Source of the DNA: Spirochaetaceae bacterium | GTDB taxonomy: Bacteria > Spirochaetota > Spirochaetia > Treponematales > Breznakiellaceae | Length of the DNA: 51,477 bases | Assembly: GCA_031276945.1 (NCBI GenBank) | Contig: JAISMB010000012.1 | Location: forward strand, 1 to 51,477 | Reading direction: 5' to 3' | Part shown: positions 35,334 to 51,477 of the stretch, in pieces | How the letters are laid out: every line of letters begins with the position of its first letter | Position numbering within the stretch: position 1 is the first letter of the stretch | Notes under the pieces: generated by a model | The model's database searches: none | Seen by the model: only the letters and a program-made list of their open reading frames with translations | Told to the model about the DNA's origin: nothing | Made by a program: the position numbers and the translations under genes

Positions 35334-35455
35334 GCTAACGCGTGGGTTAGACTGTCTCTAACGTGTATGTTAGAGGTACTCTAACGCATAAGTTAGAGAT
35401 AGTCTAATGCATAGGTTAGAGATAGTCTAACGCATAGGTTAGAGATAGTCTAACG
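35334..35455. repeat. Five-unit array of nested dyads, 23-bp period
   Basis: Units like TCTAACGCATAGGTTAGAGATAG plus variants repeat with a 23-bp period. Each unit is itself an inverted repeat, for example CTCTAAC-GCATAA-GTTAGAG. Single pieces of the same dyad occur at about 31079 and 31149. The array lies about 80 bp upstream of the dyad and promoter of the sulfur operon. Confidence 0.85.
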
Positions 35456-35530
35456 TAATGCCCACCGTTGGACAAAGCCGTATACGTTGGTTTTGCTCAG
35501 AGCGCCTGTGAGCGGTGCCGCATACCAGTA

Positions 35531-35596
35531 TATTCCTATAATCCTTATATCTTTTATAGGAATAACGCTTGACAAAAGAATATAAATAACTATAAT
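35531..35596 (+). promoter_or_regulatory. Consensus promoter of the sulfur/MAR-like operon with an upstream dyad
   Basis: TTGACA (35569-35574) and TATAAT (35591-35596) are both perfect, with a 16-bp spacer. Just upstream a dyad has 11-bp perfect arms TATTCCTATAA (35531-35541) and TTATAGGAATA (35554-35564), 12 bp apart, ending 4 bp before the -35 box. Downstream of the -10 box a related half site CGTAGGAAA follows. An upstream dyad next to a strong promoter could bind an activator or a sulfur-status repressor. Confidence 0.85.
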
Positions 35597-35649
35597 TATT
35601 TTTTACCTAGTATTCGTAGGAAATTAGCCGTATGAGGAGGTTAAAAAAG

Positions 35650-35688
35650 ATGAAATCTTGTAGCTGTCAATCGGATGACTGTTGTTGA
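35650..35688 (+). CDS. 12-residue Cys-rich leader peptide upstream of the sulfur operon
   Basis: An ATG at 35650 with a strong ribosome site (GAGGAGG, 9 bases upstream) opens a 13-codon frame reading MKSCSCQSDDCC then TGA. Four of twelve residues are Cys, with a Cys-Cys pair immediately before the stop. It lies 54 bases after the -10 box and 39 bases before the first structural gene. The arrangement fits a cysteine-sensing uORF: ribosomes slow at the Cys codons when charged tRNA-Cys is low, changing access to the downstream start. No classic terminator hairpin follows, so translational control is more likely than transcription attenuation. Confidence 0.7.
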   Translation: MKSCSCQSDDCC

Positions 35689-35727
35689 AGAACGCACTGT
35701 ATAGATTTTTTATGGAGGAATTTTACA

Positions 35728-36555
35728 ATGAAAAAGATGCTCTTAGTAGCATTACTAATTATAAACTCCGTGCTTGCGTTTACAAGCGCACGGAGGGATA
35801 GTACGTATACTTTATGGAATACGCTTGAACGATGGAAATCCGATTACCAGTGGGTTGATTTGAGCTTTGAGCTCAGTCCTGATACACCCCATTGGTATGG
35901 ATTTAATCCGCTTGAAATAAAGCCGCTCTACACTTTTGAAAATACCGGCGGTGTTTTTCTTGCCTATCAATACACCTTATCCGGGCAGTACGGCACCCAT
36001 ACCGATTTCCCCGGTCATTTTGATCCTGATGGACGGCTTACCCATGAATACACTGTGCAGGACTTAGTGTATCCTTTGGTAGTTATTGATAGATCTGCGG
36101 CGGTTGCGCTTAATGCGGATTATGTCCTCACCAAACAGGATGTCTTAGACTGGGAAGCACAGTACGGACAGATACCGTCAGGATCATTTGTTGCATTCCG
36201 TAGTGATTGGTCAAAACGGACAGCGCTTGAATATGAAAACAAAGATGATAATGGCAATTCCCATTATCCGGGCTGGGATATTGAAGCGCTTAACTATCTT
36301 ATCGAAGTACGTAATGTTGCTGTGATAGGGCATGAGACACCGGATACCGATTCTGCACTTACCGGTGCAACGGTCGGCTTTATTGGTGAAGACTATGTTC
36401 TTGATCACGACAGATTAAACGTAGAACTGTTGAAGAATCTCGACCGCGTACCGCCGGTTGGAGCAATCGTTTTTGTTACCTTCCCCAAACTGAAAAATGG
36501 AACGGGGTTTACCAGTCGGGTTTTTGCTATAAGCCCGCACATACAAGAGGAGTAG
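35728..36555 (+). CDS. Secreted cyclase-family (kynurenine formamidase-like) metal hydrolase
   Basis: The 275-residue protein has a signal peptide (MKKMLLVALLIINSVLAFTS) and the cyclase-family core: WVDLSFELSPDTPHW near the N-terminus and the metal-binding GTHTDFPGHF (HxD...H pattern) near residue 92, followed by HETPDTD at about 210. Family members hydrolyse amides or lactones with Zn or Mn. It is the first gene after the Cys leader, 3 bases before metY. A role in releasing a sulfur-containing substrate in the periplasm is inference from position; no substrate is known. Confidence 0.82.
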   Translation: MKKMLLVALLIINSVLAFTSARRDSTYTLWNTLERWKSDYQWVDLSFELSPDTPHWYGFNPLEIKPLYTFENTGGVFLAYQYTLSGQYGTHTDFPGHFDPDGRLTHEYTVQDLVYPLVVIDRSAAVALNADYVLTKQDVLDWEAQYGQIPSGSFVAFRSDWSKRTALEYENKDDNGNSHYPGWDIEALNYLIEVRNVAVIGHETPDTDSALTGATVGFIGEDYVLDHDRLNVELLKNLDRVPPVGAIVFVTFPKLKNGTGFTSRVFAISPHIQEE

Positions 36556-36558
36556 TTT

Positions 36559-37890
36559 ATGTCTCATTATCATTTTGATACGCTTAAAATCAGAGCCGCC
36601 TATGATCCGTCTTTACATAATCAGGCAGTTTCACCGCCGATTTATCAAACAACGGCTTATGAATTTCAGGATACTAAAAAAGCCGCTGCGCTTTTTGCAT
36701 TTACTGAGCCGGGATTTTTATACACACGGGTCAATAACCCCACCGTAGATATTCTGGAACGCCGGATTGCGGAGCTTGACGGCGGCAGCGCTGCGCTTGC
36801 GCTTGCCTCCGGCATGGCGGCAATTTCCTATACGATTTTAACTTTAGCAGAGGGCGGCGGCAGAATACTGGCGAGTCCTTACCTGTACGGCGGAAGCACC
36901 GATGCTTTTCAGCGGCTTTTTCCTCGTTTTGGTATCCATTTTGACCAGTCCGCTGCTGTTATTGATAATCCGGCGGAATTGGAAAAAGAGATCAAGCCGG
37001 ATACTAAGGCTATCTTTGTTGAATCAATCGGTAATCCAACCGGTGCTATTGCCGATTTGGAAACTTTAGCCGCAATTGCCCACCGGCACGGTATCCCGCT
37101 CGTCGTGGATAATACCTTTGCAACTCCGTACCTTCTTAATCCCATACAGTACGGCGCTGATATTGTCGTTTACTCGGCGACAAAAGCGCTCAATGGGCAT
37201 GGCAATCTGATTGCCGGTTTGATAGTAGAAGCCGGCAAATTTGCTTGGGGTAACGGTAAATTTCCTCAACTGCAAGAACCTGAGTACCTTCTGCGCGATC
37301 GCAGTACCGGTAGAAAGCGCAGTTTTTTAGAAGTGACTCCCCAAGCTCCCTTTGTAACCCGGATACGTTTAACCTACCTTAACTATTTCGGCGCCGCTCT
37401 GGGACCCTTTGATGCCTATCTAACCCTGCTTGGCGTTGAAACGCTCTCCGAACGGCTGCAAAAACAGGTTGAAAATGCCAAAAAAGTAGTTGCCTATTTG
37501 GAAAAGAACGAACACGTGGCGTGGATACAGTATTCTGGATTGCCGTCAAGCCGGTATTACCAGCAGGGCAAAAAGTATTTTCCGAAAGGGCTGCCCGGTA
37601 TTTTTTCCTTCGGCTTCAAAGGAACTATAGCGGAGAGTGAAGCTTTCCTCGATGCGATACAGTTGTGGAGCTACCATGTCAATGTCGGAGATGCCCGGTC
37701 ATTGATTGTCAATTCCCCCAAAACAACGCACAGTGAATTGACCGAGGAAGAACAGAGAAAGGTTGCTATAGAGCCTAATTTGATCCGTCTCTCTCTTGGT
37801 TTGGAAGACCCGGAAGATTTGATAGCCGATCTGGATCAGGCTTTCGCCACCGTCTTCGGCGCAGCCGCGCAAAAAGAGCGGCAATCTTAG
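36559..37890 (+). CDS. metY: O-acetylhomoserine sulfhydrylase (MetY)
   Basis: This 443-residue PLP enzyme of the Cys/Met metabolism family joins O-acetylhomoserine with sulfide to give homocysteine, or with methanethiol to give methionine directly. The PLP lysine is K209 in YSATKALNGHG; Asp184 (VVDNTFATP) contacts the pyridine, and Y55-R57 (LYTRVNN) bind phosphate. The length (430-445) and the NGHG motif favour MetY over cystathionine enzymes. Placed between the hydrolase and the methionine importer and upstream of the nitrogenase-like genes, it is the likely acceptor for methanethiol. Confidence 0.93.
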   Translation: MSHYHFDTLKIRAAYDPSLHNQAVSPPIYQTTAYEFQDTKKAAALFAFTEPGFLYTRVNNPTVDILERRIAELDGGSAALALASGMAAISYTILTLAEGGGRILASPYLYGGSTDAFQRLFPRFGIHFDQSAAVIDNPAELEKEIKPDTKAIFVESIGNPTGAIADLETLAAIAHRHGIPLVVDNTFATPYLLNPIQYGADIVVYSATKALNGHGNLIAGLIVEAGKFAWGNGKFPQLQEPEYLLRDRSTGRKRSFLEVTPQAPFVTRIRLTYLNYFGAALGPFDAYLTLLGVETLSERLQKQVENAKKVVAYLEKNEHVAWIQYSGLPSSRYYQQGKKYFPKGLPGIFSFGFKGTIAESEAFLDAIQLWSYHVNVGDARSLIVNSPKTTHSELTEEEQRKVAIEPNLIRLSLGLEDPEDLIADLDQAFATVFGAAAQKERQS

Positions 37891-37911: not shown

Positions 37912-38700
37912 ATGGCTGAAACATTTATACGGATAGAAGGTTTGCGCAAAACCTTTCAAAGCCGTGGAAAAAACTTTGCCGTTCTGAACGGGATCAATCT
38001 GGCAATCGAAAAAGGTGATATTTTTGGCATTGTGGGCTTCAGCGGTGCAGGGAAGACAACCCTTATCCGCTGTATCAACCGGCTGGAAACACCCGATACC
38101 GGCACTATCACCATAGGCGGCAAAGAAGTTACCGGTCTTTCGCTTCATGAGCTTGAAGCTTACAGGCAGAAGATCGGTATCATCTTCCAGCAGTTTAACC
38201 TCTTGGATTCCCGTACCGTTTTCGGCAATGTCTCCTTCCCGCTGGAAGTTGCCGGAGAAAAACGCCCCGCGCTCAAAAAGCGGGTCATGGAGATACTGGA
38301 GCTTGTGGGGCTGTCGGCAAAGTCTGATTTCTATCCCGGACAGCTAAGCGGCGGGCAGAAGCAGCGGGTCGGCATTGCCCGTGCATTGGCGAATAAGCCG
38401 GATATTTTGTTGAGTGATGAGGCGACCTCGGCTTTAGACCCGCTGACCTCTCTTTCCATTCTGGATCTGCTTGTGGATATTAACAAAAAGCTGGGGCTTA
38501 CCATTGTCCTCATCACCCATGAGCTGGATGTGATCCGGTATGCGTGTAGTCAGGTGGCGGTGCTGGAAGAAGGGCAGATAGCGGAAGCCGGCAGCGTAAA
38601 AAGTATATTTATGAATCCGAAGAGTGAGACAGCAAGACTGTTTATGAAGATAAACAGGGATTTTTCAACACATGACTTACAGGATGGCAGCGGTATATGA
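37912..38700 (+). CDS. metN: Methionine ABC transporter ATP-binding protein
   Basis: The 262-residue ATPase has Walker A GFSGAGKTTL, signature LSGGQKQRVGIARAL, Walker B ILLSDEATSALDP and H-loop LITHELDV. The family-typical N-terminus (IRIEGLRKTF) and DEATSALDP wording match MetN. The C-terminal ACT-like sensor domain of E. coli MetN (about 340 residues) is missing, so trans-inhibition by methionine may be lost. Its end overlaps metI by 4 bases (ATGA). Confidence 0.92.
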   Translation: MAETFIRIEGLRKTFQSRGKNFAVLNGINLAIEKGDIFGIVGFSGAGKTTLIRCINRLETPDTGTITIGGKEVTGLSLHELEAYRQKIGIIFQQFNLLDSRTVFGNVSFPLEVAGEKRPALKKRVMEILELVGLSAKSDFYPGQLSGGQKQRVGIARALANKPDILLSDEATSALDPLTSLSILDLLVDINKKLGLTIVLITHELDVIRYACSQVAVLEEGQIAEAGSVKSIFMNPKSETARLFMKINRDFSTHDLQDGSGI

Positions 38701-39410
38701 ACAGCGGCGGAATAACAAAAATGCTCATCACGCTAAAAAGCGCTTTTAGCGCCGGCACGTGGGGAATTGTTGCCCCTTCCATCAGCCAAACGCTGTATAT
38801 GGTGCTGCTCACCACCGTGCTGACCGGTTTATGCGGTCTTATGCTGGGGATAGCTTTGATCCTTACCGATAAGGACGGGCTTTACCCGCTGCCGGTTTTT
38901 AATGCGGTGCTGGGAGGGCTTATCAACATCCTCCGCTCCATGCCGTCCATGATCATCATTATTCTGACCCTGCCTCTTTCGCGGCTGATCATCGGCATAT
39001 CCTACGGACCGAAGGCGTGTATTATTGCCCTTGCGGTAAGCTGTATCCCCCTCTTCGCCCGGCTGGTTGAAAGTAGCATAGTGGAGGTGGCGCAGGGTAA
39101 GGTGGAGGCGGCAAAAGCGATGGGCGCACGGAACAGAGATATTATTTTCAAGATCATGCTGCCTGAGGCGCTGCCGTCTCTGGTGCGCAACTTCACCATC
39201 GCCATCATAGCGATCATATCAACGACCGCCTTAGCCGGTTCTTTTGGCGCCGGCGGGCTGGGGGACGTGGCTGTCCGCTTCGGGTACAACCGCTTTCGGG
39301 CGGATATTCTCATCGCAGCCGTACTGGTACTGATCGTCTTGGTTAATGCGGTGCAGTTTGTGGGCGAGGGCATCGCCAAATATATCTTAAAGAAACGCCA
39401 CTTACTCTAA
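38697..39410 (+). CDS. metI: Methionine ABC transporter permease
   Basis: The 237-residue permease has five to six helices and the coupling motif EAAKAMGARNRDIIFKIMLPEALPSL, characteristic of MetI. It starts in the ATGA overlap with metN. With metN and metQ it imports methionine or, in this operon, possibly related thioethers or sulfoxides. Confidence 0.94.
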   Translation: MNSGGITKMLITLKSAFSAGTWGIVAPSISQTLYMVLLTTVLTGLCGLMLGIALILTDKDGLYPLPVFNAVLGGLINILRSMPSMIIIILTLPLSRLIIGISYGPKACIIALAVSCIPLFARLVESSIVEVAQGKVEAAKAMGARNRDIIFKIMLPEALPSLVRNFTIAIIAIISTTALAGSFGAGGLGDVAVRFGYNRFRADILIAAVLVLIVLVNAVQFVGEGIAKYILKKRHLL

Positions 39411-39502
39411 GCGGCGCAAGAATCTATAAAAATCTATCAGCCGTTGGCTGAGGAGAGCGTCTTCCTGTGTGAAGGCGCTGCTCAAACAAAAAGGAGTATG
39501 GT

Positions 39503-40360
39503 ATGAACAGGGTATTTGGGGTTTTTCTGGTTGCAGCATTTATGCTTATTGCTCTTGCTGGTTGCCAGAAAACCAAACAAGAGGGCACCGCTGCCCCGGC
39601 GCAGACAAGCACTCAGGCTGAAGCGGCAACGCCTGCTGCACGGATAGGGCTGACTGTGGTTGCGGATTTAGTGCCGCATACGGAGCTGCTGGAATTCGTC
39701 AAGCCCCAATTGGCAACGCAGGGCATTGATCTAACGGTTATTTCGTACGGCGATGTTACCAATGGCAATGCCCAGACATCGGCGGGAGAATTCGATGCGA
39801 ATTTCTTTCAGCATGAACCTTACTTACAATCGGTCGTAAAAGAGATGGGCTACGATCTGGTCAACGCCGGGAACATTCACGTTGAACCTATAGGGGCGTA
39901 TTCTGAAAAATTTCGGACAAAGGAGGAGCTGCCTGATACGGCAACGATAGCTATACCGAATGATGCGACCAATGAGTTTCGGGCTTTGACTATACTGGCG
40001 GAAAATGGTTTTCTCAGACTAAAGGAGAACACGGATATTTATGCCACGACCGCTTTGGATGTGGCAGAGTATCTCAAGCCAATTACGCTGGTTGAAATGG
40101 ACTCCGCGGCTATTTTGCGGGTTCGGGATCAGTTTGACGCCTATATTACCAATACCAATAAGGTGCTGGAGGCGGGCATTGATACGCAAACGGTTCTCTT
40201 CAGAGAAGGCAGAGATTCGCCGTATGCGAACATACTGGTTGTAAAGCCGAGCCGTCTCAATGATCCGGCGATTAAGGCGCTCTACCACGCGTTGACCAGT
40301 GAAGAGGTGCGCCAGTTTATTACAGAACGCTACAAGGGTGCGGTTATCCCCGCATTCTAG
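39503..40360 (+). CDS. metQ: Methionine-binding lipoprotein MetQ
   Basis: A 285-residue NlpA/MetQ-type lipoprotein with lipobox LALAGC (ALAGCQKT). The mature domain has VTNGNAQTSAGEFDANFFQHEPYLQ, PIGAYSEKFRTKEELPD and IAIPNDATNEFRALTILAENG, all typical MetQ segments. AAGGAG lies before the ATG. An alanine/threonine-rich linker of about 25 residues follows the lipobox. It is the last gene before the 21-bp array and the nitrogenase-like genes. Confidence 0.94.
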   Translation: MNRVFGVFLVAAFMLIALAGCQKTKQEGTAAPAQTSTQAEAATPAARIGLTVVADLVPHTELLEFVKPQLATQGIDLTVISYGDVTNGNAQTSAGEFDANFFQHEPYLQSVVKEMGYDLVNAGNIHVEPIGAYSEKFRTKEELPDTATIAIPNDATNEFRALTILAENGFLRLKENTDIYATTALDVAEYLKPITLVEMDSAAILRVRDQFDAYITNTNKVLEAGIDTQTVLFREGRDSPYANILVVKPSRLNDPAIKALYHALTSEEVRQFITERYKGAVIPAF

Positions 40361-40448
40361 GGTGTATCGTCAAGAGCAAGGAAATAAAGTAAGATAAAAA
40401 GTGGAACTATAGTGTCTTTGAGCGGGGTTAATTCTGCTCAAAGAGTAA

Positions 40449-40770
40449 TTATTGGGTCTTTGAGAGAGGAGATCGGGTCTCTGAGAATGCTTATTGGGTC
40501 TTTGAGAGAGGAAATCGGGTCTCTGAGAATGCTTATTGGGTCTTTGAGAGAGGAAATCGGGTCTCTGAGAGTGCTTATTGGGTCTTTGAGAGAGGAAATC
40601 GGGTCTCTGAGAATGCTTATTGGGTCTTTGAGAGAGGAAATCGGGTTTCTGAGAATGCTTATTGGGTCTTTGAGAGAGGAGATCGGGTCTCTGAGAATGC
40701 TTATTGGGTCTTTGAGAGAGGAAATCGGGTTTCTGAGAATGCTTATTGAGTCTTTGAGTTTGACGACACC
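40449..40770. repeat. Tandem array of about 15 units, 21-bp period (42-bp higher order)
   Basis: Units GGGTCTTTGAGAGAGGAGAT plus C alternate with GGGTCTCTGAGAATGCTTAT plus T, giving a 42-bp super-repeat. One unit holds the odd palindrome TCTC-T-GAGA. The plus strand is open and would encode heptads (IGSLREE, IGSLRML) of a coiled coil, and the minus strand is open too (SQRPNKH, SQRPDFL), but neither has a convincing ribosome site. The array lies between metQ and the MAR-like genes, inside what would be one transcript. Confidence 0.92.
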
Positions 40771-40801
40771 TCCGAGGAGCGAGACAGACCTTGAATGGAA
40801 C

Positions 40802-40853
40802 GGTCAGCATGCCTGACCACAGAGTATCAGCGCGGCTGACCTGATATGGTCAG
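40802..40853 (+). promoter_or_regulatory. Four GGTCAG/CTGACC segments able to form alternative hairpins upstream of the D-like gene
   Basis: GGTCAG (40802-40807) and CTGACC (40813-40818) form one hairpin; CTGACC (40836-40841) and GGTCAG (40848-40853) form a second. Segments can also pair crosswise (1 with 3, 2 with 4). This is an attenuator-like layout, or a double operator. No poly-T follows, so the mechanism is open. Confidence 0.5.
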
Positions 40854-40939: not shown

Positions 40940-42406
40940 ATGAGTGAAATCAATTTACGATCTTCGAGCGTGCCAGTGAGAGAAACACGGCTCGGATCAA
41001 TAACTGGCTATGCCGGCACTGCCTCTAATTTGGTGGACTGCGCCCGTCAAGGCTGTCTCAAGGAAAAAAAACGTTCCTTCAGCCAATGTCTGGGCTGCTC
41101 TACCTCAAATGCCGCCTGCACCCTCGTCCTGATACAGGATGCAGCAGTGATAAGCCACGGTCCGGTCGGCTGCTCCGGTTGCCTGCATGAATTCGCCTTT
41201 ACCTACCGGGTCAACGGTGTACATCGGGCGGTCTTTGAGCCGACTCCCCGCCGGATATTCACGACCGATTTGGGGGAAAAGGATACGGTTTACGGCGGCG
41301 GCGAAAAATTGGCGCAGACAATCCGCACCGTCTTCAAGCGGGTCAAACCCAACGCCATCTTTATCATCACCACCTGCGCCTCCGGCATCATAGGCGACGA
41401 TGTGCAGGGAGTGGCGGATGAACTTGAAGAGGAAATAGGCATTCCGGTCGCGGCTGTTTTCTGCGAAGGGTTTCGGTCAAAGATTTGGACAAGCGGCTTT
41501 GATGCCGGCTATCATGCCATCGCCCGCAAACTGATTAAAAAGCCGGTAAAAAAGCAGCAGGATTTGGTCAATGTGATAAACTTTTGGGGAGCGGATTTTA
41601 TCGGCGGCTGGTTCAAAGAGCTGGGCTTGCGGGCAAATTACCTGACCCCCTTTGCCACAGTCGCCCAGATTGCCTCCTCTTCTGAAGCTGCCTGTACCAT
41701 GCAGGTTTGTGCAACGCTCGGTTCTTACCTCGGCGCCGCCTTAGAGCAGGGATTCGGCGTGCCGGAAATCAAAGTATCGCCTCCTTATGGCATAGCGCAG
41801 ACTGAACGGTGGTTTCAGGAACTGGGCAGACTAACCGGTCGAGAAGAAGAAGTTGCAACCTTCCTGAGCAAAGAGCGGGAACGATGGCTGCCGGCAATAG
41901 AAGAGCTGCGATCAAAGCTTGCCGGCAAGACCGCCTATGTTACAGCAGGCGCTTCACATGGGCATTCTTTGCTGGCAGTGCTGAAGGAGCTGGGAATGAA
42001 GCCGGTCGGAGCTGCGATCTTCCACCACGATCCTCTCTACGACAACGGCGCGGTAACCGCTGATACCTTGCAAAATGTGGTCAATGATTATGGGGATATT
42101 CCCCGGTACACGGTCTGTAACAAGCAGGAATTTGAGCTGGTCAATGTTTTGCACAAAGCCCGCCCCGATATTCTGCTTGCCCGGCATGGCGGCATGACCC
42201 TTTGGGGAGCGAAATTCGGCATCCCCTCCCTTTTGATAGGCGATGAACATTTCGGCATGGGCTATCAGGGACTGGTACAATACGGCAAGCGGATCTTGGA
42301 AACCATGGAAAACGATGAGTTCGTTAAGAATTTTGCGAAACACGCGGTTAATCCGTACACGGAATGGTGGCTTGCGCAAGAGCCGTATACCTTTCTGGAA
42401 GCATAG
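40940..42406 (+). CDS. marD: Nitrogenase-like component 1 D subunit, probable methylthio-alkane reductase MarD
   Basis: The 488-residue protein is a NifD-family subunit. Candidate P-cluster-type Cys: C50/C53/C60 region, C78 (GPVGCSG, like NifD Cys88) and C146 (TTCASGIIGDD, like Cys154). C257 in MQVCATLGSYLG aligns without gaps over the following helix with the NifD cofactor ligand Cys275 (VHCYRSMNYI), and H437 (GDEHFGMGYQG) lies near the expected second ligand. So both cluster sites seem kept, unlike BchN-type proteins. Its neighbours metY and metNIQ and the NifB-like gene point to methylthio-alkane reductase (sulfur salvage) rather than N2 fixation. AGAAGGA precedes the ATG. Group IV function is by context. 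Confidence 0.82.
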   Translation: MSEINLRSSSVPVRETRLGSITGYAGTASNLVDCARQGCLKEKKRSFSQCLGCSTSNAACTLVLIQDAAVISHGPVGCSGCLHEFAFTYRVNGVHRAVFEPTPRRIFTTDLGEKDTVYGGGEKLAQTIRTVFKRVKPNAIFIITTCASGIIGDDVQGVADELEEEIGIPVAAVFCEGFRSKIWTSGFDAGYHAIARKLIKKPVKKQQDLVNVINFWGADFIGGWFKELGLRANYLTPFATVAQIASSSEAACTMQVCATLGSYLGAALEQGFGVPEIKVSPPYGIAQTERWFQELGRLTGREEEVATFLSKERERWLPAIEELRSKLAGKTAYVTAGASHGHSLLAVLKELGMKPVGAAIFHHDPLYDNGAVTADTLQNVVNDYGDIPRYTVCNKQEFELVNVLHKARPDILLARHGGMTLWGAKFGIPSLLIGDEHFGMGYQGLVQYGKRILETMENDEFVKNFAKHAVNPYTEWWLAQEPYTFLEA

Positions 42407-42420
42407 GAGGGGGCGTACCG

Positions 42421-43743
42421 GTGATAGAACAAGAACGTTTTATGTGTGCGATTGGGGCAATGCAGACGGTCGTGGCGATTAAGCGCGCGCTGCCTATTCT
42501 CCATTCAGGTCCCGGTTGCGGGACCATGGTAGCCGGCTTTTTTGAACGGTCGACCGGTTATTCAGGCGGCAGTACCGCCCCCTGTACCAACTTCTCTGAA
42601 ACGGATGTGGTATTCGGCGCTGAGGCAAAACTGGAAAAGATAATCCGCAATTCGTACCAGATACTGAAGAGCGATATACAGGTCGTTTTAACCGGCTGCA
42701 CGGCGGCTATTGTCGGCGATGACAGTACACGGGTAACTAAGCTCTTTGCCGCCGAAGGAAAACCCATTGTCTTTGTCGATACTCCCGGTTTCAAGGGGAC
42801 TAATTACGAAGCCCATAGTACGGTTGTCAATGCGATTATTGATCAGTTTGTCAGTCGGTTCAGTGCCGATACCGTAAAAGAGCCGCGGCTGGTCAACCTC
42901 TTTGCCTCAATTCCCTATCAGGATCCTTTTTGGAAGGGTAATTTAGAAGAGTACAAACGGCTTATTGAAGGGATAGGGCTGAAAGTCAATATCCTTTTTG
43001 GTCCCTCGGCAGGGGGTGTTGCAGAATGGAAGACAATTCCACAGGCGAACTTTAATATCCTGATTTCCCCATGGTTCGGACTGCCGATTGTCGAGCATTT
43101 GCAAGAAAAATACGATCAGCCTTTCTATCAATTTCCGGCTGTCCCCATTGGCGGTAATGAAACGACTCGGTTCTTACGGGAATTGACAGCTTATGCGAAT
43201 GAAAACGGAGCCGCCCTTTCTCTTGCGGATGCGGAATCTTTTATTGCCGCGGAAGAAGGGGCATTCTATGAAGAGATTGATAATCTCGCGACATTTCTAT
43301 TGGAATTTCGGTATGGACTGCCGGCTTTTGTGCATATTCTGCATGATGCCGGTTATGTTTTGGGCATGGCGCGCTTTCTCTTACATGAGACCGGCATTGT
43401 ACCGAAAGAACAGTTCATTACTGATAAAACGCCGGAACAGTACCACGAAGCGATTAGCCGGCAGATAGCCGGTATTTCTGCCAAGAGGAATATTCCGCTC
43501 TATTTCCAACCTGACGCCGGTCTCGCTCAGGAACAGATCCGTGCGACAGAGCATGAGGGGCGCGGCTTAATAATCGGCAGCGGGTGGGATAAGGAACTTG
43601 CTCAGAAAAAGCACTACGATTTTTTATCCGCGGCACTGCCGTCTCCCTATCGACTGGTGATGAACACAGGGTATGCCGGTTACCGCGGAGGGCTACGCCT
43701 CATCGAGGATATTTATAACAACGCATTAGCGACGTACCGGTAA
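42421..43743 (+). CDS. marK: Nitrogenase-like component 1 K subunit, probable MarK
   Basis: The 440-residue protein is the partner beta-type subunit. Three Cys fit P-cluster ligands: C9 (RFMCAIGAM), C33 (HSGPGCGTM) and C93 (TGCTAAIVGDD), as in NifK. The long N-terminal extension of NifK is absent, as in group IV enzymes. GTG at 42421 was chosen as start since GGAGGGGG lies 8 bases upstream; a longer in-frame start at 42364 lies inside marD. Fifteen bases separate it from marD, so subunits should be made in equal amounts. Confidence 0.82.
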   Translation: MIEQERFMCAIGAMQTVVAIKRALPILHSGPGCGTMVAGFFERSTGYSGGSTAPCTNFSETDVVFGAEAKLEKIIRNSYQILKSDIQVVLTGCTAAIVGDDSTRVTKLFAAEGKPIVFVDTPGFKGTNYEAHSTVVNAIIDQFVSRFSADTVKEPRLVNLFASIPYQDPFWKGNLEEYKRLIEGIGLKVNILFGPSAGGVAEWKTIPQANFNILISPWFGLPIVEHLQEKYDQPFYQFPAVPIGGNETTRFLRELTAYANENGAALSLADAESFIAAEEGAFYEEIDNLATFLLEFRYGLPAFVHILHDAGYVLGMARFLLHETGIVPKEQFITDKTPEQYHEAISRQIAGISAKRNIPLYFQPDAGLAQEQIRATEHEGRGLIIGSGWDKELAQKKHYDFLSAALPSPYRLVMNTGYAGYRGGLRLIEDIYNNALATYR

Positions 43744-43759
43744 AAGGAGTATGAATACT

Positions 43760-44617
43760 ATGAACACGCAGCTACGGCATATTGCCCAGAGACATCCCTG
43801 TTTTTCCCATCAAGCGTCTATGAACCGCGGACGTATACACCTGCCGGTCAGTCCGGTTTGCAATATACAGTGCCGGTTCTGTCGACGCGCCTTTAATAAA
43901 ATAGAAAACCGTCCAGCAGTCGCCTCCGGTCTGCTTGAACCAAAAGATGCAGTCTCTTACGTAAGAGGCGCGCTTGAACTCTGTCCGGAAATTACCGTTG
44001 TCGGTATCGCCGGTCCGGGCGATCCTTTGGCAAGCCCTCATGCCCTGCAAACATTCCAGCTTATTTATCAAAATTTTCCGGAGATGATTAACTGCCTGAG
44101 TACCAACGGCTTATTGCTTGAGGACTATGCGCTCGATCTTTTTCATGCGGGCGTTCAAACGGTAACCGTCACGGTCAACGCGGTTGATCCGGCGATCTTA
44201 GCACATATCTGTGCCTCTATCATCGTGGAAGGAAAGCGGTATGAAGGGTACGAAGGAGCTGCACAGTTGATCGCAGCGCAAAAGCGGGGCATAGCAAAAG
44301 CGGCGGCATTGGGAATGCTCATTAAAATAAATACGGTCTTGATTCCGCCTTTGAACGGCGATCATATAGCAGATATTGCCCGGACTGTCAAAGCTTTAGG
44401 CGCCGGTATCATCAACATTATTCCGCTGATACCGCAGTACGAATTCAGTGATTTTCAGTCGCCGGATTGTATTGACCTCACGCTTGCGCGAGAGGCGGCG
44501 GAAGAATTCTTGCCGGTCTTCCGGCATTGTCAGCATTGCCGTGCCGATGCCTGCGGTATTCTGGGTAAAACAGACCTGTTTTTACCCCAGATAGAACAGA
44601 GCTTTTCCCATGGTTAA
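43760..44617 (+). CDS. marB: NifB-like radical SAM cofactor-assembly protein, probable MarB
   Basis: The 285-residue protein has the NifB radical SAM core: N-terminal HPCFSHQA, the cluster motif C34-NIQ-C38-RF-C41, the SAM-binding GIAGPGDPLA, NCLSTNGLLL, TVTVNAVDP and the C-terminal HCQHCRADACGILG. It lacks the fused NifX domain. NifB makes the Fe8S9C core, so the D/K enzyme probably carries a NifB-co-derived cofactor. The second ATG (43760) is preferred; the first at 43751 lies only 1 base from GGAG. Confidence 0.87.
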   Translation: MNTQLRHIAQRHPCFSHQASMNRGRIHLPVSPVCNIQCRFCRRAFNKIENRPAVASGLLEPKDAVSYVRGALELCPEITVVGIAGPGDPLASPHALQTFQLIYQNFPEMINCLSTNGLLLEDYALDLFHAGVQTVTVTVNAVDPAILAHICASIIVEGKRYEGYEGAAQLIAAQKRGIAKAAALGMLIKINTVLIPPLNGDHIADIARTVKALGAGIINIIPLIPQYEFSDFQSPDCIDLTLAREAAEEFLPVFRHCQHCRADACGILGKTDLFLPQIEQSFSHG

Positions 44618-44758
44618 GCGTAACCGGCTCGTTCTCAGGTCTGTCTGTCCGCTCACGGGAAAGGCGCAGGTCTTTTGTCTTCGGTTAGAGCAGAGACGCT
44701 GGTTCAAAAGCGGGTATCCGGCAGGTGCAAGAGAAAGTTTTAGTATAAGGAGGGTTGT

Positions 44759-45115
44759 ATGTCATGGAGAATAGCTCTGGCAAGTATTGATAATCTACTG
44801 GTAACGGAGCATTTTGGACGGTCAAAATGGTTTTATATACGGGATTTAGAACCGGACGGTACCAGTAAAACGGTTGAAAGGCGGCTCTTCCAGCCACTCT
44901 GTGCTGCGTGTGCCGATCATAATCCTGCCGGATTGAATTTGGATGCTCTGCGGGATTGTCAGGCGGTGCTGACCGTCAAAGCCGGTCCCGCGGTTCATCA
45001 ACAGTTAGAAGCAGCGGGTATTAGTGTCTTTGAAGGACCGGCGGTTATTGATGAGGCGCTTAAAAAATTAGCGGCGTATTATGTACAGATAAGGAGAAAA
45101 CAATGGGGAAACTAA
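44759..45115 (+). CDS. NifX/NafY-type dinitrogenase cofactor-binding domain protein
   Basis: This 118-residue protein matches the dinitrogenase iron-molybdenum cofactor (NifX) domain: [21 protein letters not shown] (family EHFGRA motif), then CAACADHN and [25 protein letters not shown]. NifX-type proteins hold and pass on NifB-co. A CAAC pair near residue 49 is unusual and could bind metal. AGGAGGG precedes the ATG, and the end overlaps the NifH-like gene by 13 bases. Published MAR operons are usually described as marBHDK, so this is an extra part. Confidence 0.82.
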
Positions 45116-45978
45116 AACAGATTGCTGTTTACGGCAAGGGCGGTATTGGGAAATCAACCACAACGTCCAATTTAAGTGCGGCGCTTTCAAAGCTCGGCTA
45201 CAAAGTCATGCAATTCGGCTGCGATCCCAAAAGCGACTCAACCAATACCTTGCGCGACGGGACCTATATTCCCACCGTGCTCGATTCCTTACGGGAAAAG
45301 AATACGATTAACGCCCGTGATGTTATTTTTACGGGATTTAACGGCGTTTATTGCGTGGAAGCCGGCGGTCCTGCGCCGGGTGTTGGCTGTGCCGGCAGGG
45401 GCATCATTACCGCGGTGGAACTGTTTAAGCAGCAGCGCATCTTTGAAGAACTGGAACTTGATTTTGTTATTTACGATGTTTTGGGCGATGTTGTCTGTGG
45501 CGGCTTTGCCGTGCCGATCCGAGAAGGCATTGCAGAACAGGTATTTACCGTATCCTCTGCTGATTTCATGGCGCTCTATGCAGCAAATAATCTCTTCAAG
45601 GGCATACAAAAATACTCAAATTCCGGCGGAGCGCTGCTCGGCGGTATCATTGCCAATTCTATTAACCGTCCGTATGCGCAAGAGATCGTCAATGATTTTG
45701 CCAGTAAAACCAAGACACGGGTTGTCGAATACATTCCGCGTTCGGTAACGGTCAGTCAATGCGAACTGCACGGCAAGACGACCATCGAAGCAGCCTTTGA
45801 TTCTGCCCAAGCAAAGATTTATCTCAGTCTTGCAGAAAAAATCGCCGCGCACACAGAATCACAGGTCCCTGCCCCGCTTGGTATTCAGGAATTACGGGAT
45901 TGGGCAGGCAAATGGGGGCAGTATTTATTGGCTCTTGAGACCGGCTCTATCCGGGAAGAACTGGCAACCAATATTTAA
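45103..45978 (+). CDS. marH: NifH-like reductase, probable MarH
   Basis: The 291-residue ATPase is the electron donor to the D/K complex. Motifs: P-loop GKGGIGKST (residues 11-19), and the two Cys that bind the bridging 4Fe-4S cluster of the dimer, C96 ([11 protein letters not shown]) and C132 ([13 protein letters not shown]). The wording GVGCAGRG and length match NifH/BchL rather than ParA. Overlap with the NifX-like gene suggests coupled translation. No terminator was seen downstream. Confidence 0.88.
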
Positions 45979-46146
45979 GCGATATCCCGGAGGCGAGATA
46001 GTGGACAATGGTAAGTGAGCAGTTTTACCTTAACACCACAAGGACGAGCCACTGAGAAGCAGGAGAGGACAGACCTCAGAAAAAAAGTACAAAAAATATT
46101 GCCGACATTGAATCAAAATGCAGAGTCAGTTCCCTATATAGGTATT

Positions 46147-46394
46147 ATGTCTAGTCATAATTTGCCCCGCGGCTCACAGACCGAGGTCTGACCTATCACG
46201 TTACTTCGGAAGTCAACCGGAAAGCTTTTGACTTAGATACGGATGATATGAATAAACGCTTCCTCATTGTGATCGAAGAGGCAAAGACGACCGAAGGTTT
46301 CAAGTTTAAGCTGTGGAACTCTTGTATCATGGGTAATCATTTCCACTTTCTCATCACGCCTGAAAAAGGGGAAAGTCTGTCTGAGATATTGGGT
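46147..46394 (+). pseudogene. Frameshifted and truncated REP-associated tyrosine transposase (RAYT)
   Basis: After a start ATG and MSSHNLPRG one base has been lost near 46172 compared with the copy at 51320, shifting the frame; the proper frame then reads LTYHVTSEVNRKAFDL ... CIMGNHFHFLITPEKG, which holds the HxH metal motif of Y1/HUH transposases. At LSEILGG it is cut by an IS1-derived element (46395). The 5' coding DNA contains CAGACC-GA-GGTCTG and AGGTCTGACCT (46177-46194), the dispersed motif itself. Confidence 0.88.
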
Positions 46395-46644
46395 GGTGAT
46401 CCACAAAGTATGAAGAAAAAGAGGTAAAGGCAACAGGAGGCATAAAGAAATACTATGAAGCATACAAATAACAATAGAACTCAAATGCCCCCATTGCCAT
46501 AGCTCCGCCATAACCCGAAACGGGAAAAAGAGCAAGAAAAAGCAAAATTACCGTTGTAAAGACTGTGGACGTCAGTTTATAAGCAACCATGAAAGAACCT
46601 AAATTATGGCTTTGTTTGAGGCTCATCATACTTTGTGGATCACC
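46395..46644 (+). mobile_element. MITE-like internally deleted IS1 derivative, 250 bp
   Basis: Perfect 19-bp terminal inverted repeats GGTGATCCACAAAGTATGA bracket the 5' zinc-ribbon coding part (KCPHCHSSAITRNG-like, YRCKDCGRQF) joined directly to the last bases of the transposase gene. It matches the larger element at 16214-16896 with the middle missing. It has inserted into the RAYT gene. Confidence 0.85.
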
Positions 46645-51085: not shown

Positions 51086-51319
51086 AAACGGCTTGTTCCT
51101 GACATCTTTATAGTAAGGTAGTAGTTTTCAACTATGGTGTAACGTAGCATTCCCTTAGAAAAAAGTCAATAAGAAGAGAACCGTATGCAAGCAGGCGCTC
51201 TCCAGTGCAGCCTCTTGAAAGGCAAGATAGATAGGACAGACCTCGCCGTCAAAAATAAATAAAAAATATTGTGCTCTCATTGAATCAAAAAGCAGAGTCA
51301 GCTCCCTTATATAAGTATT
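51086..51319. other. Intergenic region upstream of the RAYT gene
   Basis: It contains AGGACAGACCTCGCCGTCAAAA (a reverse-type motif copy near 51236) and a stretch GCTCTCATTGAATCAAAAAG that matches the region upstream of the RAYT pseudogene at about 46100. No other gene seen. Confidence 0.5.
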
Positions 51320-51477
51320 ATGGCAGCGCATAATTTTCCTCGTGGGCTTACAGACCAAGGTCTGACTTATCATGTTACTTCAAAAGTAAACAGAGACGCT
51401 TTTGAATTAGAGCCGGATGAGATGAAAGAACTCTTTCTCACCGTGATTGCAGAAGCAAAAACCTCCAAAGGTTTCAA
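51320..51477 (+). CDS. REP-associated tyrosine transposase (RAYT), N-terminal part
   Basis: The ATG at 51320 opens a frame running off the window: MAAHNFPRGLTDQGLTYHVT then SKVNRDAFELEPDEMKELFL. It is the intact version of the pseudogene at 46147 (YHVTS start of Y1 transposases). Codons for TDQGLTY contain CAGACC-AA-GGTCTG (51351-51364) followed by ACTTAT, so the dispersed palindromic motif is part of the coding sequence. The 200 bases upstream match those of the other copy. RAYTs mobilise or bind REP-type palindromes as single strands. Confidence 0.85.
   Translation, partial: MAAHNFPRGLTDQGLTYHVTSKVNRDAFELEPDEMKELFLTVIAEAKTSKGF

Follow-up and report, generated by a model that had tools for sequence, protein, structure and literature searches.

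A cysteine-codon-containing leader frame, probably translated and maintained, precedes a methylthio-alkane reductase-type operon in a spirochete lineage

We find that a short upstream frame (uORF) of 12 codons, four of them for cysteine, precedes a methylthio-alkane reductase (MAR)-type operon in a 51,477-nt stretch of Spirochaetaceae DNA (the window), and that this frame is probably translated and maintained, as judged from its sequence and from related genomes. Its role can be assigned more tentatively. The reading we prefer is that of a translated leader uORF, maintained by selection within a small lineage, whose most likely effect would be to tune the MAR/methionine-salvage operon to cysteine supply; cysteine sensing by the uORF is plausible, yet unproven.

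The 39-nt frame at window positions 35650-35688 (ATGAAATCTTGTAGCTGTCAATCGGATGACTGTTGTTGA) reads directly as MKSCSCQSDDCC followed by a stop codon. Its ATG lies nine bases beyond the AGGAGG, and its stop is 39 nt ahead of the ATG of the first operon gene at 35728, so that an apparently translatable frame with its own ribosome site sits between promoter and operon (Table 1). The first-pass annotation had described this arrangement, a ribosome site and a 12-residue peptide with four Cys between a consensus promoter and the operon, and its coordinates are exact. All four Cys codons are TGT. In 13 genes of the window, 1.24% of codons are for Cys, and against this background at least four Cys in 11 codons has a binomial p ~7e-6. 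Among Markov-resampled leaders, an SD-preceded frame of 9-20 codons occurred in 0.5%, and one that also carried at least four Cys in 0.003%. These chance figures are optimistic because the frame was chosen by visual inspection of 51 kb of sequence, and the comparative evidence weighs more.

Table 1. Features of the leader and operon, with the orthologous uORFs of two relatives (G003, G021).
Feature	Position	Strand	Basis or remark
Inverted repeat ATTCCTATAATCCTTATATCTTTTATAGGAAT, operator-like	35532..35563	+	directly upstream of -35
Promoter TTGACA-16-TATAAT, sigma-70-type	35569..35596	+	12/12 hexamer positions; conserved in G003, G021
Short dyad CCTAGTATTCGTAGG near predicted transcription start	35606..35620	+	leader alignment
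uORF ribosome site AGGAGG	35635..35640	+	invariant in 3/3 leaders
12-codon uORF MKSCSCQSDDCC	35650..35688	+	read directly; orthologues in G003, G021
Ribosome site of first operon gene, TGGAGGAATT	35713..35722	+	GGAGGAATT invariant in 3/3 leaders
Cyclase-family protein PF04199, first operon gene	35728..36555	+	Pfam 3.8e-36
O-acetylhomoserine sulfhydrylase-like PLP enzyme	36559..37890	+	TIGR01326 4.4e-145, slightly below cut-off
MetN, MetI, MetQ-like methionine transporter genes	37912..40360	+	TIGR02314, PF03180 for MetN, MetQ
MarD-like subunit	40940..42406	+	9fmg chain A, E 2.2e-128
MarK-like subunit	42364..43743	+	9d9u/9fmg chain C, E 2.5e-114
NifB-like radical SAM, NifX-like, NifH-like genes	43751..45978	+	TIGR01290, PF02579, TIGR01287
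G003 uORF MIKFCICQLEYY	L094:411-449		AGGAGGTTATC before ATG
G021 uORF MQSWTCQSECYQKS	L077:11731-11775		AGGAGGTTATCATA before ATG

The sequence of the downstream genes supports well the assignment to the MAR type, and thereby the earlier description of the operon as MAR-like. The MarD- and MarK-like proteins match PDB 9FMG, the MarDK2H2 methylthio-alkane reductase (PMC12552129), far above the next-best nitrogenases (3e-34 and 2e-14), so the term MAR-like is well founded. As listed, the MarK-like ORF overlaps the MarD-like one; relatives align from MarK-like residue 15-20, and the true start is therefore probably downstream. MetI was assigned from position and conservation. MAR-type operons with 58-87% MarK identity (L094-L173) are spread over Clostridia, Synergistaceae, Coriobacteriales, Elusimicrobiota, Fibrobacteria, Acetobacterium and others, and their gene order varies. 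No Cys at all is found in the first two proteins of the operon (35728-37890; 275 and 443 aa), compared with 1.24% nearby, possibly a form of sulfur sparing. Short tandem repeats are found upstream of the operon (35335-35460, TAACGCATAGGTTAGAGATAGTC-like) and between metQ and marD (40400-40820, one frame reading IGSLREE...), and similar repeat spacers lie ahead of marD in another genome, G001. Two similar stretches (46030-46440 and 51240-51477) look like the beginning of a transposase-like gene, and the first of them is apparently truncated.

Searches of 200 genomes of the family, with the first operon gene and the MarK-like protein as queries, recovered the operon in full synteny in G003 and in rearranged form in G021. 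The leader is present in both, and these were the only two other genomes searched that hold an orthologous leader; a leader DNA search of 394 genomes of the order likewise gave whole-leader matches solely in this pair. The first-pass annotation had proposed conservation of the short frame as a check on its cysteine-sensing interpretation, and the frame is conserved: in both relatives the ribosome site, the start and the reading frame are retained, the length stays at 12-14 codons, and no fewer than two Cys codons remain. The G003 start codon lies exactly one codon upstream, in frame, the sole internal length change among the uORFs is exactly three bases, and identity is 67-69% within the uORF versus 42-58% in the spacer that follows it. 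Cys codons number four of 12 in the window copy, and two of 12 and two of 14 in the relatives, with aligned Cys columns of C/C/W, C/C/C, C/Y/C and C/Y/Y (in the order G000, the genome of the window, then G003 and G021); one Cys and the Gln after it are invariant. The interpretation thus keeps its conserved frame and its MAR-like operon, but loses the Cys-Cys-stop end that it had expected to be shared, since the three uORFs end in CC-stop (window), YY-stop and CYQKS-stop and the run of Cys before the stop is not shared. Such a run has been described for actinobacterial leaders, although we know of no requirement for it.

Fourfold-site differences are 0.44-0.46 for both pairs. In a neutral simulation at that divergence, a selection test with three sequences, a simple model and a uORF aligned by hand, an SD-preceded frame of 9-20 codons survived in 1-1.5% of cases, and in about 8-10% when the SD was held; survival together with two or more Cys occurred in 0.1-1.4%. 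At about half the divergence the corresponding values were 3-5% (SD free), 13-17% (SD held) and 0.7-6% (at least two Cys), weaker but unchanged in direction. Because the frame is retained where neutrality would keep roughly 1-10%, the uORF is probably translated and kept; G021 retains it despite having its cyclase gene cut to a 38-codon remnant. Most non-Cys codons change amino acid, and the data therefore favour a kept translated frame over a kept peptide. The G021 remnant (L077:11806-11922) joins the first cyclase residues in frame to the C-terminal part, and a full-length relative (73%) is encoded elsewhere in that genome.

Among 132 gene leaders in related loci, an SD-preceded frame of such length was present in the window and G003 leaders only, the G021 leader being outside this set because it precedes the gene remnant. 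When 390 gene leaders from 80 MAR loci across many phyla were scanned for SD-uORFs carrying two or more Cys, nothing emerged beyond the two orthologous leaders and a single, unconvincing frame ahead of a nifB-like gene. In a pattern search of four genus genomes (67-82% complete) for SD-uORFs ending in Cys-Cys-stop, the sole additional hit in the window's own genome was out of frame. Most MAR operons, those of nearer relatives included, are without such a uORF, as are more distant ones, among them that of G141 (single contig, 3.86 Mb).

In the cysteine-sensing reading that we prefer, scarce Cys-tRNA would slow or stall ribosomes on the uORF Cys codons, and stalling would raise operon expression without a conserved hairpin switch. 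This might proceed through a ribosome held near the 5' end, which would protect the mRNA or exclude Rho, or through altered reinitiation at the next gene, 30-39 nt further on. The direction, from scarce Cys to more expression, is drawn by analogy with mycobacteria, and transcription itself would be set, as a further layer, by a DNA-binding protein acting at the operator-like repeats. The Cys enrichment of the window copy, the orthologous uORFs, the MAR-type sulfur operon behind them and hairpin-free actinobacterial precedents all favour cysteine sensing. Against it stand the small number of leaders (three) and the drop from four Cys to two in both relatives, where two Cys have a chance of about 1% per frame and inheritance explains them too. 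In addition, the pathway of the operon makes methionine, yet the uORF has no Met run.

We found no terminator-like site from the predicted start up to the cyclase gene; the leader fold equals that of shuffles (z 0.13), with no RNA structure beyond chance, and Rfam searches at gathering and permissive thresholds gave nothing credible in the leader. A classical transcription attenuator is not supported, as no terminator/antiterminator hairpins were found. A translation attenuator acting by SD release is likewise unsupported, as a stall at the last uORF codons affects the computed opening energy of the next ribosome site inconsistently across the three leaders: the energy falls in G000, rises in G003 and changes little in G021. 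Any Cys-tRNA sensing must therefore be structure-free. Together with the unconserved Cys-Cys-stop end, this makes cysteine sensing plausible rather than shown. The most specific form of the proposal, a hairpin-free Cys-sensing uORF in a spirochete that tunes a MAR operon and evolves fast while keeping its start, its frame and a couple of Cys codons, is possible but doubtful.

An alternative that we also regard as doubtful, if quite possible, is that the uORF loads ribosomes near the mRNA 5' end regardless of its codons, and so acts by translation enhancement, mRNA protection or coupling, with the Cys codons irrelevant. The pattern of conservation fits this well, in that the ribosome site, start and frame are what is conserved, most other codons change amino acid and Cys positions are lost. 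It accounts less readily for the Cys enrichment of the window copy and for the finding that each of the three leaders has two or more Cys, an outcome kept in just 0.1-6% of simulations, depending on the assumptions.

No part of the leader is better conserved than the promoter-operator block. The ATTCCTATAATCCTTATATCTTTTATAGGAAT repeat is conserved in G021 and, in its right half, in G003; of the dyad CCTAGTATTCGTAGG, which may serve as an operator or form a weak 5' hairpin, CCTAGTATT is invariant and TAGG is retained in 3/3 leaders. A similar element directly precedes the -35 of the MAR operon in G141 (L081 near 11000; G141:C1 about 888000), where 0/300 shuffles score as high and the uORF is absent. 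The occurrence of this element without a uORF suggests that a protein regulator probably controls these MAR operons more widely, the uORF being probably a lineage-specific addition to that control. An exact search of five genomes for the operator, spacing and TTGACA returned this operon and one G002 site only, and one-mismatch matches were barely above control, so that no regulon can be drawn. Rrf2-type regulators are found in all three genomes. Two tandem genes of this family (G000:C139:21427-22241, a pair also present in G003, C197) are candidates for sulfur or iron-sulfur regulators; a tie between Rrf2 regulators and the operator-like site was looked for and none was found.

The conserved block, its counterpart in the uORF-less G141 and the Rrf2-type regulators would all suit an account in which a DNA-binding regulator at the promoter repeats controls the operon and the uORF is incidental and functionless. 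We consider this unlikely: under neutrality, two diverged relatives would hardly be expected to retain SD, start and frame, and among the 132 leaders such a frame is confined to orthologous ones. Control by a regulator and control by the uORF are not mutually exclusive. A small thiol- or metal-binding peptide acting in trans, to which the CxC and CC motifs of the window copy might point, is very improbable and was rejected, as the ligand pattern is not conserved and the two Cys of each relative are differently arranged.

Should the Cys codons prove functional, spirochetes and MAR operons would each gain their first reported cysteine-codon leader, within the literature searched, in which we found no description of a Cys leader for MAR. 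Such a leader would link a nitrogenase-like sulfur-salvage enzyme to translation speed, and offer a compact case of a stalled ribosome regulating without a hairpin. Should they be irrelevant, the uORF would be an ordinary translated leader and the operon would be under transcriptional control.

Compared with the MarDKH system (9FMG, PMC12552129), to which the MarD- and MarK-like proteins are closest over nearly their full length, the operon described here adds a cyclase-family gene, MetNIQ and a NifX-like gene. Cys-codon leaders are known from more than one group: the uORFC-8-2 motif before Rhodobacterales cysS (PMC8632094) also places a Cys-codon uORF ahead of a cysteine-related gene, which widens the actinobacterial-only precedent cited by the first-pass annotation. 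That motif has tandem Cys codons, conserved stems and a terminator-like U run, whereas no such stems or U run were found in the present leader. Candidate Cys leader peptides have been described for actinobacterial cys and cbs operons by Seliverstov et al. (2005; PMC1262725), whose mycobacterial cys leaders carry runs of Cys close to the stop and lack conserved hairpins. The window copy shares the Cys codons near the stop and the lack of a conserved hairpin or terminator; here, however, the Cys run is not conserved among relatives and the operon is MAR rather than cys. Mycobacterial polycysteine sORFs, reported to be cysteine-responsive (Canestrari et al. 2020, doi 10.1111/mmi.14498, as relayed in PMC9094748 and PMC13236596), are similar in being short Cys-rich frames before a sulfur operon for which sensing by ribosome speed was proposed. 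As relayed there, these sORFs are leaderless and constitute a set conserved across the phylogeny, in contrast to the strong SD, single lineage and two to four Cys seen here. Together, these two reports make the precedent for such Cys leaders a real one.
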